This document shows positions 28,692 to 33,602 of a stretch of 35,396 nucleotides of DNA, piece after piece. This stretch comes from Thermoanaerobaculia bacterium (GTDB lineage Bacteria; Acidobacteriota; Thermoanaerobaculia; Multivoradales; JAHZIX01), in contig JALXFE010000599.1 of assembly GCA_027069135.1 (NCBI GenBank), positions 1 through 35,396 of the forward strand, given 5' to 3'. Within the stretch, counting starts at the first letter, position 1. The number at the start of each line of letters is the position of its first letter. The notes under the pieces were generated by a model that was not told where the DNA came from, searched no databases, and saw nothing but the letters and a program-made list of their open reading frames with translations. The position numbers and the translations under genes are program-made.

Positions 28692-30848
28692 ATGACTGAG
28701 GGTACAGATGCAACGACCGACGAGCGCGCCGCGCTGCGGCTAGACCGAAGGGATGGCGTCGCCTGGTTGACCTTCGATGATCCGGAAAAGAAAGTGAACA
28801 CCCTTTCAAGCCGCCTCTTCGGGACGTTCGAGGGCTTTCTGACCCAGCTCGAAAACGATCCGCCCCGGGGACTGGTGCTCATCTCCGGTAAGCCGTCCAA
28901 TTTCATCGCCGGTGCAGATATCGAAGAGCTCCAAGGCTTGGGCGACCCGGCCGATGTGGCCGCCATGATCAACCGCGGCCATGCCCTGGCCAACCGCTTG
29001 AACGCCCTGCCGTTCCCGGTGGTCGCCGCCATCCACGGGTCCTGCTTGGGTGGCGGCCTGGAGCTGGCCCTGGCCTGCCATCGGCGGGTCGCCACAGAAG
29101 ACAAGAAGACGAAACTTGGCCTGCCGGAGGTTCAATTGGGACTCATCCCCGGTCTCGGCGGTACCCAGCGGCTGCCGCGCCTCATCGGGGTGGCGGATGC
29201 CTTGCCCCTGATCCTCACCGGCAAGCAGGTCGACGCCAAGAAAGCCAAGCGCCTCGGGATCGTGGAGGTGACCTGCTCCAGGGCTGACCTCGAGAGCGCT
29301 GCCCTCAAACTCCTCGAGCAAGGCAAGACCGCCCGCAAGCCGAAGAAGGCCTTCGGTCAGAGATTGGCCAACTTTCTGGCTGAAGCACCGCTCCTCAGCG
29401 GCCTGGTCTACTCCAAGGCCCGGGACGGGGTGATGTCCAAGACCGGTGGCCATTACCCGGCCCCCTTGAAAGCCATCGAAGTGGTGCGGGAAGGAATGAA
29501 GCTCTCCCTTCCGGAAGCTCTGAAAATCGAGACCCGAGCCTTCTCCGATCTCGTGGTGACGGATGTTGCCAAGAGCCTCATGGGGGTCTTCTTCATGAAG
29601 ACCGACGCCGACGGTCGCGCCGCCGCCCTGGCCGCTCAATATCCCGGCGAGCTGGAGAAGGTCGGTGTCGTGGGGGCCGGTTTCATGGGCGCCGGAGTGG
29701 CTCAGCTTCTGGCCTACCGGGACACCCAGATTCTACTCAAGGACCGAGACCAAGACGGCCTTGGGCGAGGACTCGAGACCATCCGCGGCCTTTTCGACAC
29801 ATTGGTCGAGCGACGGAAAATGAAGCCCGCGGAGCGGGATCTCGCCGTGAGCCGGGTCGAGGGCACGGTCGAGTATGCCGGCTTCGAGCACACGGATTTC
29901 GTCATCGAAGCGGTCTTCGAGGACGTGGGTCTGAAGCAGAAAATTCTCCAGGACGTCGAGGCTGCCGGTCCGGAAGGATTGATCTTCGCTTCCAACACCT
30001 CGACCATCCCCATCGCCCGCATCGCCGAGAAAAGCCCCAAGCCGGAAAACGTCCTGGGGATGCATTTCTTCAGCCCGGTCCACAAAATGCCCTTGGTGGA
30101 GATCATCCGCCACCCCGGCACCTCGGACGCCGCCGTCGCCGCCACCGCCAAGGTGGGCCTGCGCATGGGCAAGACTCTGATCGTCGTCAACGACGGGCCG
30201 GGCTTCTTCACCACCCGGGTCTTGGCCCCCTTCATGAACGAAGCGGCCTGGATCCTCACCCAGGGAGCTCGGGTCGAGCAAATCGACAAGGCCCTGACCC
30301 GTTGGGGCTTTCCGGTAGGCCCCATCGCCTTGATGGACGAGGTGGGGATCGACATCGGCGCCCACGTCACGAAAGTCCTTCTCGAATACTTCGGCGACCG
30401 CATCACCCCGCCGCCACTCTTCGATCGCCTCATCGAGGACGGCCGCAAGGGCCGCAAAGGGGGCAAGGGCTTCTACACCTATGGCCAGGGCCCAAAGAAG
30501 GTGGATGAAACCGTCTACCCTCTCCTCGACTGGAAGGAAGCGAAAATCGACGACCAGGAGATCGTGGAGCGCTGCTGGATGCAGATGCTCAACGAGGTCG
30601 CCTATTGCATCGAAGAGGGCATCATCACCAACCCCGTCGACATCGATCTCGGTGTGATCTTCGGCTTCGGCTTTCCCCCCTTTCGCGGCGGCATCCTGAG
30701 GCAGGCGGACAAATTGGGGCTCCCTCATATCGTCGAACGGCTGCGGTATTACGCGGCGACCTACGGCGACCGGCTAGCTCCGGCACCGCTCTTGGTGGAG
30801 ATGGCCGAAAAAGGCTCCACCTTTCGTTCGCCGATTTCCCCGAATTGA
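28692..30848 (+). CDS. fadJ: Bifunctional enoyl-CoA hydratase / 3-hydroxyacyl-CoA dehydrogenase (FadJ-like)
   Basis: This 718-residue protein carries out the hydration and NAD-dependent oxidation steps of fatty acid beta-oxidation. The N-terminal crotonase domain has the oxyanion and catalytic motifs FIAGADIEEL, GSCLGGGLELALACH and GLPEVQLGLIPGLGGTQ. The dehydrogenase domain begins with the NAD motif GVVGAGFMGAGVAQ (about 325). It contains FASNTSTIPI, GMHFFSPVHKMPLVEII and NDGPGFFTTRVLAP, followed by two C-terminal helical domains ending GFPPFRGG. Length fits FadJ/FadB. No thiolase gene (fadI/fadA) is adjacent. GAGG lies upstream of the ATG. Its stop codon is part of the -35 box of the proBA leader promoter. 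Confidence 0.95.
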   Translation: MTEGTDATTDERAALRLDRRDGVAWLTFDDPEKKVNTLSSRLFGTFEGFLTQLENDPPRGLVLISGKPSNFIAGADIEELQGLGDPADVAAMINRGHALANRLNALPFPVVAAIHGSCLGGGLELALACHRRVATEDKKTKLGLPEVQLGLIPGLGGTQRLPRLIGVADALPLILTGKQVDAKKAKRLGIVEVTCSRADLESAALKLLEQGKTARKPKKAFGQRLANFLAEAPLLSGLVYSKARDGVMSKTGGHYPAPLKAIEVVREGMKLSLPEALKIETRAFSDLVVTDVAKSLMGVFFMKTDADGRAAALAAQYPGELEKVGVVGAGFMGAGVAQLLAYRDTQILLKDRDQDGLGRGLETIRGLFDTLVERRKMKPAERDLAVSRVEGTVEYAGFEHTDFVIEAVFEDVGLKQKILQDVEAAGPEGLIFASNTSTIPIARIAEKSPKPENVLGMHFFSPVHKMPLVEIIRHPGTSDAAVAATAKVGLRMGKTLIVVNDGPGFFTTRVLAPFMNEAAWILTQGARVEQIDKALTRWGFPVGPIALMDEVGIDIGAHVTKVLLEYFGDRITPPPLFDRLIEDGRKGRKGGKGFYTYGQGPKKVDETVYPLLDWKEAKIDDQEIVERCWMQMLNEVAYCIEEGIITNPVDIDLGVIFGFGFPPFRGGILRQADKLGLPHIVERLRYYAATYGDRLAPAPLLVEMAEKGSTFRSPISPN

Positions 30849-30873
30849 CACCGGAGCACTCCGGCCATAGCAT
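30845..30873 (+). promoter_or_regulatory. Promoter of the proBA leader, overlapping the fadJ stop
   Basis: TTGACA (30845-30850) and TAGCAT (30868-30873) are 17 bases apart. The spacer contains a perfect palindrome, CCGGAG-CA-CTCCGG (30851-30864). The -10 ends 7 bases before the ATG at 30881, so the transcript would start at or beside that ATG. The same 7-base gap occurs before trmFO. Confidence 0.6.
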
Positions 30874-30880
30874 GGAATCC

Positions 30881-30988
30881 ATGAACCGTTTCGCTTCATC
30901 GACCCCGACAGGATATCTTCCCGGCCCGTGCCTGTCGGCGAGCCCGTTCCCTCGACGCCGTAGCCACATACAGCCGGGGGTCGGTTAG
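30881..30988 (+). CDS. Putative proline-rich leader peptide of proBA
   Basis: A 35-codon frame starts at ATG 30881, apparently leaderless, and ends with TAG at 30986-30988. It has six proline codons (positions 9, 14, 16, 22, 24 and 32): STPTGYLPGP, SASPFPRRR, and IQPGVG at the end. Its last codons overlap RNA segment 2 of the attenuator (30976-30984). That is where a terminating ribosome would have to sit to permit the terminator. An in-frame ATG at 30872 is upstream of the predicted transcript start. Translation is not proven, and the frame also stays open upstream inside fadJ, so the evidence is the arrangement, not the length. Confidence 0.5.
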   Translation: MNRFASSTPTGYLPGPCLSASPFPRRRSHIQPGVG

Positions 30989-31049
30989 CCGCAAAGTCTC
31001 GAACTCAATAGAAGCGAACCCGACCCCCAGCCCGGCGCTGGGGGTTTTT
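30898..31049 (+). promoter_or_regulatory. Putative proline attenuator of proBA
   Basis: Segment 1, CGACCCC (30900-30906), pairs with GGGGTCG (30977-30983) in segment 2. Segment 2, GGGGGTCGG (30976-30984), also pairs perfectly with segment 3, CCGACCCCC (31020-31028). Segment 3 overlaps the left arm of the terminator, CCCCCAGC (31024-31031), whose right arm is GCTGGGGG (31037-31044). Thus 2:3 and 3:4 are mutually exclusive, as are 1:2 and 2:3. Ribosome stalling at proline codons would favour 2:3 and read-through into proB; translation to the stop would cover segment 2 and allow termination. Pairings are seen; regulation is inferred. Confidence 0.6.
31024..31049 (+). terminator. Intrinsic terminator upstream of proB
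   Basis: CCCCCAGC (31024-31031), loop CCGGC, GCTGGGGG (31037-31044), then TTTTTC. The stem is a perfect 8 pairs. It may end fadJ transcripts and also serve as the attenuator terminator for proBA, since its left arm overlaps the anti-terminator partner. Confidence 0.9.
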
Positions 31050-31104
31050 CATTTTGCTCAGCGCCTCGATGGGCGCGTTTGCTGTCGAATTCGGAGGTTC
31101 AGCC

Positions 31105-32310
31105 ATGAGTATCGCAGAAGCATCCCCCGTTCCGGAGGCCCAAGACATCCGAGCTTTGGGCTCCTCGGAGACCCCTCGTCCGGCGATCTCCGAAGCTCGG
31201 CGCATCGTGGTCAAGTTGGGAACCCGGGTCCTCACCGACAAAGATGGGTACTTAGCCAGCGCGCGCGTCGGAGCCCTGGTGGCGACAGCGGCGGCCATCC
31301 GCCAATCCGGCCGGGAAGTGATGCTGGTCAGCTCCGGCGCATTGGCCCTCGGCTGCAAGGTCTTGGGCTACGAAATCCCACCCAACCGCCCGGATCTGCG
31401 CAGGGCCTGTGCCGCCGTCGGCCAGACTCAGCTCACCGCCCTCTACGAGCACCGCCTGAGCCTCCACGGCCTGGTCGGGGCGCAGGTCCTGGTCAGCGAG
31501 AGTGATTTCGACGACCGCGACCGCAATCTCAAGCTCCGCAGGACCTTGGACGCTCTGCTCCAGCGCGGCGTCGTCCCCATCGTCAACGAAAATGACGCCA
31601 TCGCTGCCGCGGACCTCCCCTCCGTCGATGGCACCCACCGACCCGTGTTCGGCGAAAACGACCGTCTGGCGGCGCTGGTCTCGAGCGCTGTCAAGGCAGA
31701 TCTCCTGGTGCTCCTGACCAACGTCTCCGGTGTCTTCGACGCCAACCCCCTGGAAAATCCGGAGGCCAAGCTGCTCACCACCATCGAGGACTCGAGTGTG
31801 CTGTCGGCCTGCACCGGGGCGGGCTCCCTGGTCAGCCGGGGCGGTATGCGGTGCAAGGTGGAGGCGGCCTTGATCGCATCCTCCGGCGGCTGCCATGCGG
31901 TGATCGCCAGTGGCGTCGACCCGGGAGTCTTCTCCCATCTGATGGCCGGGGAAGATGTCGGGACGTGGTTTCCGGCCCAAGGAAATCTGGACAGCCGAGA
32001 CCGCTGGATCGCCTATTCCACCGCCATAAGAGGCGTGCTCCACCTGGACGCCGGAGCGGTCCGGGCCCTTCGCGAGCGCAACGCTTCCTTGTTGGCCAAA
32101 GGCCTCGTGGCGGTGGATGGAGAGTTCGGTCCCGGGGACGTGGTGGAGCTGCGAGGCCCGGGCCGGGAGCTCGTCGGCCGGGGATTGATCCGCTTCAGCG
32201 CCGCCGGTGTCGACCGCTGGCGCCAGGGCAAGGCACCGGCGGAAGCGGCGGGCCAGAGCACCTTGATCCGCCGCAATTTCATCGTCCTGGCACCGGAAGG
32301 GGAGCATTGA
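31105..32310 (+). CDS. proB: Glutamate 5-kinase ProB
   Basis: ProB phosphorylates glutamate in the first step of proline synthesis and is usually feedback-inhibited by proline. The 401-residue product has the amino acid kinase motifs VVKLGTRVLT, LVSSGALALG, RRACAAVGQ, NENDAIA and FGENDRLAALVSSAV. The LLTNVSGVFDANP block is followed by SLVSRGGMRCKVEAA. A C-terminal PUA domain (from about residue 300) is present. An N-terminal extension of about 30 residues precedes the kinase core. The ATG at 31105 is 7 bases after GGAGG and was preferred over 31054. proA starts 2 bases after the stop. Confidence 0.95.
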   Translation: MSIAEASPVPEAQDIRALGSSETPRPAISEARRIVVKLGTRVLTDKDGYLASARVGALVATAAAIRQSGREVMLVSSGALALGCKVLGYEIPPNRPDLRRACAAVGQTQLTALYEHRLSLHGLVGAQVLVSESDFDDRDRNLKLRRTLDALLQRGVVPIVNENDAIAAADLPSVDGTHRPVFGENDRLAALVSSAVKADLLVLLTNVSGVFDANPLENPEAKLLTTIEDSSVLSACTGAGSLVSRGGMRCKVEAALIASSGGCHAVIASGVDPGVFSHLMAGEDVGTWFPAQGNLDSRDRWIAYSTAIRGVLHLDAGAVRALRERNASLLAKGLVAVDGEFGPGDVVELRGPGRELVGRGLIRFSAAGVDRWRQGKAPAEAAGQSTLIRRNFIVLAPEGEH

Positions 32311-32312
32311 GC

Positions 32313-33602
32313 ATGGATATCCAACCTGAGACTCTCGCCGCCTCTGTGCGCAAGGCTCAGCGCTCCTTCGGAAGTAGCCGCGGCGAGCAACGCTCCGCCG
32401 TATTGCTGCGCCTGGCCACGATCTTGGTAGACCGGGAAGCCTCGTTGCTCCAAGCCAACCGCCGGGATCTCGAGGCGGCCGATGAGAGCGGTCTGACGGG
32501 AACCCTCCTCAAACGGCTGGCGTTGACTCCGGAGAAGCTCGCGACCCTGCGCGAAGGCGTCTTGCAGCTGGCAGCTCAAGAAGACCCCCTCGGACGGGCG
32601 CTGCGTCGCACCGAGCTCGATGACGGCCTCCTCCTGACCCAGGTCGCGAGCCCCTTGGGAGTGCTGTTGATCATTTTTGAAAGCCGCCCCGACGCGGTGA
32701 TCCAAATCGGATCCCTGGCCCTGCGCACCGGCAATGGCGTGATCCTCAAAGGCGGCTCCGAGGCCCTGCACTCCAACCGAGCCCTGGTCGACTGCCTCCG
32801 CCAAGCCTTGGAAGAGGAGGGGCAACCGGCAGATGCCGTCGTGGGCATCGAGGGACGCCAAGCCGTCGCCGAGCTTCTGGCCCTGGACCACCACATCGAC
32901 CTGGTCATCCCCCGAGGTTCCGGAAAGCTGGTGCGGTCCATCCAAAGCTCTACGCGCATACCCGTCCTCGGCCATGCGGAGGGGATCTGCCACCTATATC
33001 TCGACGCCTCCGCCGATCCAGCGATGGCGGCGCGTCTGGCGGTGGACGGCAAATGCAGCTACCCCTCCGCCTGCAACGCCACCGAGACCCTGCTGGTCCA
33101 TCACGCCTTCCTTCCCCACCTTGCCAAGATCGGTGAGGCATTGGCCACCGAAGGTGTGAAGATCCAGGCGGACGACCGTTCCCACCCCCACATTGCCGGT
33201 GCCCAACTGGCTCACGAGTCGGCCTGGACGACGGAGTGGGGAGACCTGACCCTGGGAGTCCGGGTGGTCGATAGCCTGGAAGAGGCCATCGACCATATCC
33301 ACCGCTACGGCAGCGCCCATACGGACGCCATCGTCACCGAGGACGACCTGGCCGCGGAACGCTTCCTCCAAGAAGTGGACTCCGCCTCGGTCTTCGCCAA
33401 CGCCTCCACCCGTTTCGCGGACGGCTTCCGCTATGGCCTGGGAGCCGAGGTCGGCATCGCCACCGGGAGAATCCACGCCCGGGGCCCGGTCGGCGTCGAT
33501 GGCCTCCTCACCACCCGCTGGTTGCTGCGCGGCGAAGGTCAGACCACCGGCGATTACGGCCCCGGAAAACGAGCCTTCACACACCGGCAGCTGGCGGTCT
33601 GA
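32313..33602 (+). CDS. proA: Gamma-glutamyl phosphate reductase ProA
   Basis: ProA reduces gamma-glutamyl phosphate with NADPH to glutamate-5-semialdehyde, the second step of proline synthesis. The 429-residue protein has SPLGVLLIIFESRPDAV, RTGNGVILKGGSEALHSN, VIPRGSGKLVRSIQ and the catalytic-cysteine motif YPSACNATETLL (C254). The C-terminal VFANASTRFADGFRYGLGAEVG and ARGPVGVDGLLTTRW are also typical. It follows proB with a 2-base gap. HepT converges on its 3' end 11 bases away. No proC is present in the window. Confidence 0.96.
   Translation: MDIQPETLAASVRKAQRSFGSSRGEQRSAVLLRLATILVDREASLLQANRRDLEAADESGLTGTLLKRLALTPEKLATLREGVLQLAAQEDPLGRALRRTELDDGLLLTQVASPLGVLLIIFESRPDAVIQIGSLALRTGNGVILKGGSEALHSNRALVDCLRQALEEEGQPADAVVGIEGRQAVAELLALDHHIDLVIPRGSGKLVRSIQSSTRIPVLGHAEGICHLYLDASADPAMAARLAVDGKCSYPSACNATETLLVHHAFLPHLAKIGEALATEGVKIQADDRSHPHIAGAQLAHESAWTTEWGDLTLGVRVVDSLEEAIDHIHRYGSAHTDAIVTEDDLAAERFLQEVDSASVFANASTRFADGFRYGLGAEVGIATGRIHARGPVGVDGLLTTRWLLRGEGQTTGDYGPGKRAFTHRQLAV

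Follow-up and report, generated by a model that had tools for sequence, protein, structure and literature searches.

Organization of the proBA leader region

The window, a 35,396-nt stretch of DNA from a member of the Thermoanaerobaculia, carries the genes for glutamate 5-kinase and glutamate-5-semialdehyde dehydrogenase downstream of fadJ. The features of this region are as follows.

28692–30848: fadJ ORF, whose stop codon lies under the promoter
30845–30873, plus strand: sigma-70-type promoter by sequence match, TTGACA-N17-TAGCAT, overlapping the fadJ stop codon
30881–30988, plus strand: leader ORF of 35 codons, MNRFASSTPTGYLPGPCLSASPFPRRRSHIQPGVG followed by a stop
30900–30906, plus strand: segment 1, CGACCCC, complementary at 7/7 positions to GGGGTCG (30977–30983) of segment 2
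30944–30952, plus strand: codons Pro22-Phe-Pro24, proposed accessory control codons (Pro before or within the Arg core in 7/7 leaders)
30953–30961, plus strand: codons Arg25-Arg26-Arg27 (CGA CGC CGT), proposed main control codons (at the Arg-Arg position of 7/7 leaders)
30976–30984, plus strand: segment 2, GGGGGTCGG, left arm of the antiterminator, within the leader ORF
30986–30988, plus strand: leader stop codon TAG, directly 3′ of segment 2
31020–31028, plus strand: segment 3, CCGACCCCC, right arm of the antiterminator, overlapping the left arm of the terminator
31024–31049, plus strand: intrinsic terminator, CCCCCAGC-CCGGC-GCTGGGGG-TTTTT (hairpin 31024–31044, TTTTT 31045–31049)
31092–31096, plus strand: GGAGG, ribosome-binding site of proB
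31105–32310, plus strand: proB, glutamate 5-kinase, ATG at 31105 (TIGR01027, 305 bits)
32310–33602, plus strand: proA, glutamate-5-semialdehyde dehydrogenase (above cut-off for TIGR00407 and PRK00197)

Directly past proA, on the minus strand, lies a toxin-antitoxin pair of a HepT ribonuclease and an MntA nucleotidyltransferase (PF01934, PF01909; 33614–34313).

The two promoter boxes, TTGACA at 30845–30850 and TAGCAT at 30868–30873, are separated by 17 nt and constitute the sole sigma-70-like site in 30500–31400, where 0.1 is expected from shuffled sequences. The ATG of the leader ORF at 30881 is located 7 nt past the −10 box, and a second in-frame ATG is found at 30872. Judged by the promoter spacing, the ORF probably starts at, or adjoins, the 5′ end of the transcript and is translated leaderless. 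It encodes MNRFASSTPTGYLPGPCLSASPFPRRRSHIQPGVG, with six proline codons, and ends with TAG at 30986–30988. The 9 nucleotides of segment 2 are fully complementary (9/9) to those of segment 3. When 30881–31046 is folded without constraint, the minimum free energy structure contains the 1:2 and 3:4 hairpins together. This predicted combination of the 1:2 hairpin with the terminator is the default state expected of an attenuator. All these elements had been named in a preliminary description of the sequence (the promoter, the 35-codon ORF with its six proline codons, the 1:2, 2:3 and 3:4 pairings, the stop after segment 2, the terminator and proB), and each was confirmed base for base.

The stability of the fold is moderate when the window's genome is taken alone (z −1.6), and GC-rich DNA gives rise to chance ORFs. 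Both points would fit an unregulated intergenic terminator, belonging to fadJ or to a short transcript, that happens to lie behind such an ORF. However, the 7.17-Mb genome contains a single instance of the combined motif GGGG-N28-58-CCCCCRG-N4-20-CYGGGGGTTTT, and this is the proB leader. As a control, the pattern read backwards was run against 149 genomes of the class and matched none. The comparison with other genomes, described below, also argues against an unregulated terminator and makes it very improbable: the layout recurs before proB in seven diverged genomes whose upstream genes differ, and the promoter-to-ATG spacing and the position of an Arg-Arg pair are shared.

Conservation of the leader upstream of proB

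A proB gene was located in 23 of the 72 genomes of the order; in the class, it was recognisable (E ≤ 1e-25) in only 32 of 149. The same leader layout was found upstream of proB in seven genomes of the order (G000, G023, G016, G029, G040, G012 and G004), which fall in three families (f1, f2 and f6). Common to the seven are a promoter with a 17-nt spacer, an ATG 7–11 nt past the −10 box, and an ORF of 30–55 codons. Near the end of every ORF lies an in-frame GGGG, followed by the stop after 2–6 codons, and the terminators take the form CCCCC(A/G)G...C(T/C)GGGGGTTTT. The −35 boxes of the other six leaders are TTGACA (4/6) or TCGACC/TTGCGC, followed by TA(G/C)NNT. The genes 5′ of the leader vary between genomes, and the element is therefore assigned to proBA rather than to fadJ.

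In a tree of 40, the proB proteins of the seven leader genomes and of G001, a genome of the window's genus, form one clade with 98/94 support. Upstream of the G001 proB no leader is recognisable. Nor could one be recognised before the remaining proB genes of the order (G003, which runs off its contig, was excluded), and the proB genes belonging to f18, within the class, have none either. The absence of the short ORF from relatives had been put forward in the preliminary description as evidence that would speak against an attenuator. Such absence is seen in G001 and for most other proB genes of the order, but the comparison indicates that the putative switch is confined to one proB clade, within which it is conserved.

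Alignment of the leaders by MAFFT loses register between the stop and the terminator, and RNAalifold applied to this alignment is reliable for the terminator only. The antiterminators were therefore judged sequence by sequence. By this procedure the antiterminator and terminator helices fold in 7/7 leaders. The antiterminator arms are built from different bases, being GGGGTTGTTC/GAACAACCCC in G040 and GGGGGTCGG/CCGACCCCC in the window. The sixth pair of the terminator covaries between A-U and G-C across relatives. Outside the GGGG:CCCCC core the pairing statistics over the seven leaders are modest, with Stouffer z of −2.0 for the inner antiterminator helix and −2.5 for the 1:2 pairing, which stands out in G016 and G012.

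The stretch between the stop and the terminator, 28–41 nt in the seven leaders, is unconserved except for CCCCC. This bears on the possibility that a protein- or ligand-binding riboswitch or a T-box, and not translation of the ORF, controls the terminator. The proBA genes of Bacillus are indeed controlled by a T-box (PMC9245794). Nevertheless, so short and variable a region leaves this the least probable of the explanations considered. The leader gave no Rfam match at the gathering threshold and none of substance at a relaxed threshold, and neither a T-box stem I or specifier loop nor the antiterminator T-box sequence was found in these searches. Searches of Rfam, Pfam and NCBIfam with the leader RNAs and peptides likewise yielded no matching family.

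A ribosome-mediated attenuator of proBA is very probable, and is strongly supported because seven leaders keep the layout though their peptides are almost unalike and their proB proteins form one clade. Leaders of similar construction before ilvD and leuA in the same class, described in the next section, point in the same direction. The anatomy of the leader and its recurrence in seven genomes were established by sequence comparison of this kind, as were the Arg core and the absence of arg genes presented below.

Arginine and proline codons in the leader peptides

Near the GGGG codon the seven leader peptides read SPFPRRRSHIQPG, PCPRRRRTSSRLG, PRFRRPVSDMAPG, RPVRRPRTQSILG, APARRPRLPDRLG, APCVRRRPRFRMG and VARAPRRTLYIRG. 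Outside an Arg-Arg core (PRRR, PRRRR, FRRP, VRRPR, ARRPR, VRRRPR and PRR) they are almost unalike. An Arg-Arg pair is located 6–10 codons 5′ of the GGG codon in 7/7 leaders, compared with a mean of 0.84 after the residues are shuffled. None of 20000 shuffles reached seven such leaders; the resulting p < 5e-5 serves as a guide only, as the position was chosen post hoc and the leaders share ancestry. A Pro-Pro pair at the same position was found in 0/7 leaders. When a four-residue block at this position is considered, 25 of the 28 cells are Arg or Pro, and 20 of these are Arg. The codons of the core vary among CGA, CGC, CGT and AGG. In the window, the run CGA CGC CGT (30953–30961) immediately follows the last useful proline codon and had gone unremarked in the preliminary description. 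A ribosome with Arg25–27 in the A site would clear segment 1 without reaching 30976, as the mechanism requires.

The preliminary description had considered the attenuator to be probably proline-responsive. Proline alone would be read if the ribosome stalled at Pro22 or Pro24 and the arginine codons were incidental. The operon makes proline, the leader has six proline codons, and Pro lies within or beside the Arg core in 7/7 leaders (p 0.027). A proB attenuator in another class, described below, is also clearly proline-based. On the other hand, the number and position of the prolines vary, with only two Pro codons among the 30 of the G016 leader, whereas Arg-Arg is invariant in 7/7. Proline is frequent in this GC-rich DNA whatever the frame, with 7 to 19 prolines in every 98 codons of the two alternative frames. 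Furthermore, Pro32 is unusable as a control codon because it lies on segment 2. A switch that responds to proline only is consequently unlikely, though it is the strongest of the competing explanations. The earlier proposal is incomplete, arginine probably being read as well, and the expected conservation of proline codons in the ORFs of relatives holds for their presence beside the core, not for their number or position.

It is likely that arginine is the main, or a joint, amino acid sensed. Because Pro codons are present beside the Arg core in every leader, a joint signal of Arg and Pro appears likely, by analogy with Leu, Val and Ile, which are joined in ilv leaders. The respective shares of Arg and Pro are indistinguishable from the sequence. 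As for the match between control codons and operon product, proline is the classical product, and arginine is a product if ProBA and ornithine aminotransferase (OAT) replace argBC.

Matches to the attenuator pattern were checked singly and comprised ilvD, leuA, ilvB and tRNA-operon attenuators and several plain terminators. The ilvD leaders contain VVVLIVLVLLVILSQTTGG and LVLVLISVLLLIPSGVG, the leuA leader contains FLLLVSLLLIEPIVPGVT, and an ilvB leader was found as well. In these leaders the runs of Leu, Val and Ile codons lie shortly 5′ of the same GGGG, at about the place where the proB leaders carry the Arg core, 6–9 codons short of the in-frame GGGG of the antiterminator. These branched-chain leader-peptide attenuators, from the same class or phylum (L234, L239 and L244 for ilvD, L240 for leuA, L252 for ilvB), are apparently undescribed so far.

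An alternative would be arrest by a SpeFL-like nascent peptide, whose Arg-rich sequence would bind arginine, ornithine or proline inside the exit tunnel so that the arrested ribosome drives the switch. The Arg-Arg motif recalls the HIRRT of the speF leader (PMC6386406), and glutamate semialdehyde, ornithine and arginine are metabolic neighbours. However, arrest of this kind would be difficult to reconcile with seven peptides that are unconserved outside the Arg-Arg core, none of which matched the SpeFL-type DUF2618 peptide (PF10940) or another family. The ilv and leu leaders of the same order are, moreover, ordinary codon-run attenuators. Nascent-peptide arrest is thus improbable.

Probable arginine route in genomes with the leader

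Both argC (TIGR01850) and argB (TIGR00761) score far below cut-off in six of the seven leader genomes (G000, G029, G012, G004, G040 and G016), one of which is 100% complete. By contrast, argG, ornithine carbamoyltransferase (OTC) and OAT are above cut-off in all six, and in G000 argG adjoins a lyase gene that fits argH. The simplest route to arginine in these genomes would run from glutamate via ProB and ProA to glutamate semialdehyde, from there via OAT to ornithine, and then via OTC, ArgG and ArgH. Since argB and argC are missing while OAT, OTC and argG are kept, ProBA is probably a source of arginine in addition to proline. In the genome of the window, which lacks argB and argC but has OAT, OTC and argG-argH, arginine would thus be a sensible signal for proBA.

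The direction of the OAT reaction, like the regulation itself, is inferred here. The equilibrium of OAT favours the catabolic direction, and the enzyme usually runs opposite to the route proposed. The sole clear OTC gene of G000 adjoins an arginine deiminase gene (L212 15303–17762, G000:C447, minus strand), and the OTC there may be catabolic. The argG and OAT genes were also considered as carriers of the same Arg leader and rejected, since neither has one. Within the order, leader type and pathway are only loosely associated, because G023 has an Arg-type leader despite the presence of argB and argC, and seven proB genomes of the order without argB and argC have no leader.

A second proB attenuator in genus g95

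Across 396 genomes of the phylum, a survey identified a second proB attenuator in genus g95, which belongs to another class (G306, G209, G278 and G346; L246, L247, L248 and L249). It resembles the leader of the window in an apparently leaderless ORF, with about 9 nt between a −10-like box and the ATG, a GGGG beside the stop, and a terminator of the form CCCCCRG...CYGGGGGTTTT. It differs in its codons and its setting. The leaders MIPVATLNPIPSQPIPGIPVGGV, MIPVATINPRPSQPTSGVPAGGD and MMYQPTFNPRPSQPTSGEPVGGV share conserved proline codons (NPxPSQP) and are devoid of the Arg core, and the g95 proB belongs to a different clade than that of the seven leader genomes. It was predicted beforehand that the acetylated arginine route would be kept in this genus, and a search of 11 g95 genomes indeed placed argC above cut-off in every one, the four with the proline-type leader among them. 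Only in the g95 attenuator does proline alone look like the sensor.

In this comparison the putative sensor codons match the operon's role: Pro where ProBA makes proline, and Arg with Pro where ProBA probably makes both. It could equally be true or not that proBA is tied to the two end products of glutamate semialdehyde by a bivalent Arg and Pro attenuator in argBC-less bacteria that make arginine via ProBA and OAT, while a separate proBA attenuator in a class that keeps argC reads proline only, the sensor codons following the metabolic role of the operon. If so, a simple genomic rule would emerge, in which control codons reveal the product that a shared pathway serves. Where argBC is missing, the route to arginine appears to run through ProBA, OAT, OTC and ArgGH; the proBA leader would tell what the cell senses, and the comparison makes this route testable.

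Proposed mechanism and relation to known attenuators

The leader is likely to operate as an attenuator of the trp/leu type on a leaderless mRNA, with Arg as control codons and Pro alongside. RNA polymerase would start at about 30880, and the leader ORF would be translated from the leaderless 5′ end. With no ribosome present, segments 1 and 2 would pair and the 3:4 terminator would form. If charged tRNAs are plentiful, the ribosome would reach the stop and cover segment 2, and the terminator would again form. When charged tRNA-Arg, and probably also tRNA-Pro, is short, the ribosome would stall on the P-x-P-R-R-R codons and remove segment 1, so that segment 2 (GGGGGTCGG) could pair with segment 3 (CCGACCCCC). 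The 2:3 pairing would let the polymerase read on into proBA. Besides proline, ornithine and arginine would then derive from the glutamate semialdehyde that ProBA makes. The stalling and the identity of the sensed tRNA are likewise inferred.

Leader-peptide attenuation is a textbook mechanism. Leaderless leader ORFs are also known from the Cys attenuators of mycobacteria, which have another amino acid and another target. Candidate terminators are not obvious in mycobacteria (PMC1262725). Ribosome-mediated attenuators have been described for trp, his, leu, ilv, thr and phe, and for cys in Actinobacteria (PMC1183508, PMC1262725), and proline is unmentioned in both reports. A survey of 2010 that predicted attenuators in phyla including Acidobacteria noted an associated function for almost none of them (PMC2965389). 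The preliminary description knew of no proline leader-peptide attenuator of proBA in this kind of bacterium, and the open-licence literature likewise yielded neither a published one, an earlier description being possible, nor a published case of Arg codons controlling such a terminator. With the classical amino-acid attenuators of Proteobacteria and Actinobacteria the leader shares an ORF with putative control codons, predicted 1:2, 2:3 and 3:4 pairings that exclude one another, an intrinsic terminator and a biosynthetic operon. It departs from them in that the target is proBA, the codons are Arg with Pro, the ORF is apparently leaderless, and segment 2 is located inside the ORF just before the stop.

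Two other systems are close in function. In Salmonella and E. coli, the orf34/speFL leader of speF senses arginine through two consecutive Arg codons, a precedent for such sensing, and is metabolically adjacent through ornithine; unlike the present leader, it acts by Rho-dependent termination and mRNA decay (PMC6386406), and its peptide family PF10940 is not matched by the window leader. The tRNA-Pro T-box of Bacillus proBA and proI relieves premature termination of proBA through uncharged tRNA, the effect proposed for the window leader, but by direct binding of the tRNA (PMC9245794), in contrast to the translated leader described here.

Leader ORFs before a tRNA cluster

Leader ORFs encoding MKAITLSLLSYSMLTIVRGIEV and MKRILLPLSSYSMLTNVRGVEV, each closed by a stop codon, were also found in front of a cluster of six tRNA genes; they show the same promoter spacing, a GGGGG, an antiterminator and a terminator (L225 1405–1600 with tRNAs at 1677–2296, G044:C374; L226 1405–1600 with tRNAs at 1831–2386, G033:C265). 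The order of the cluster is Ser(tga)-Tyr(gta)-Leu(tag)-Leu(gag)-Leu(caa)-Ser(gct), and every member is a class-II tRNA. The arrangement looks like a putative leader-peptide attenuator through which a tRNA operon would respond to the tRNAs it encodes. The codons CTC CTA AGT TAC TCG and CTG of the G044 leader fit the anticodons of the cluster.
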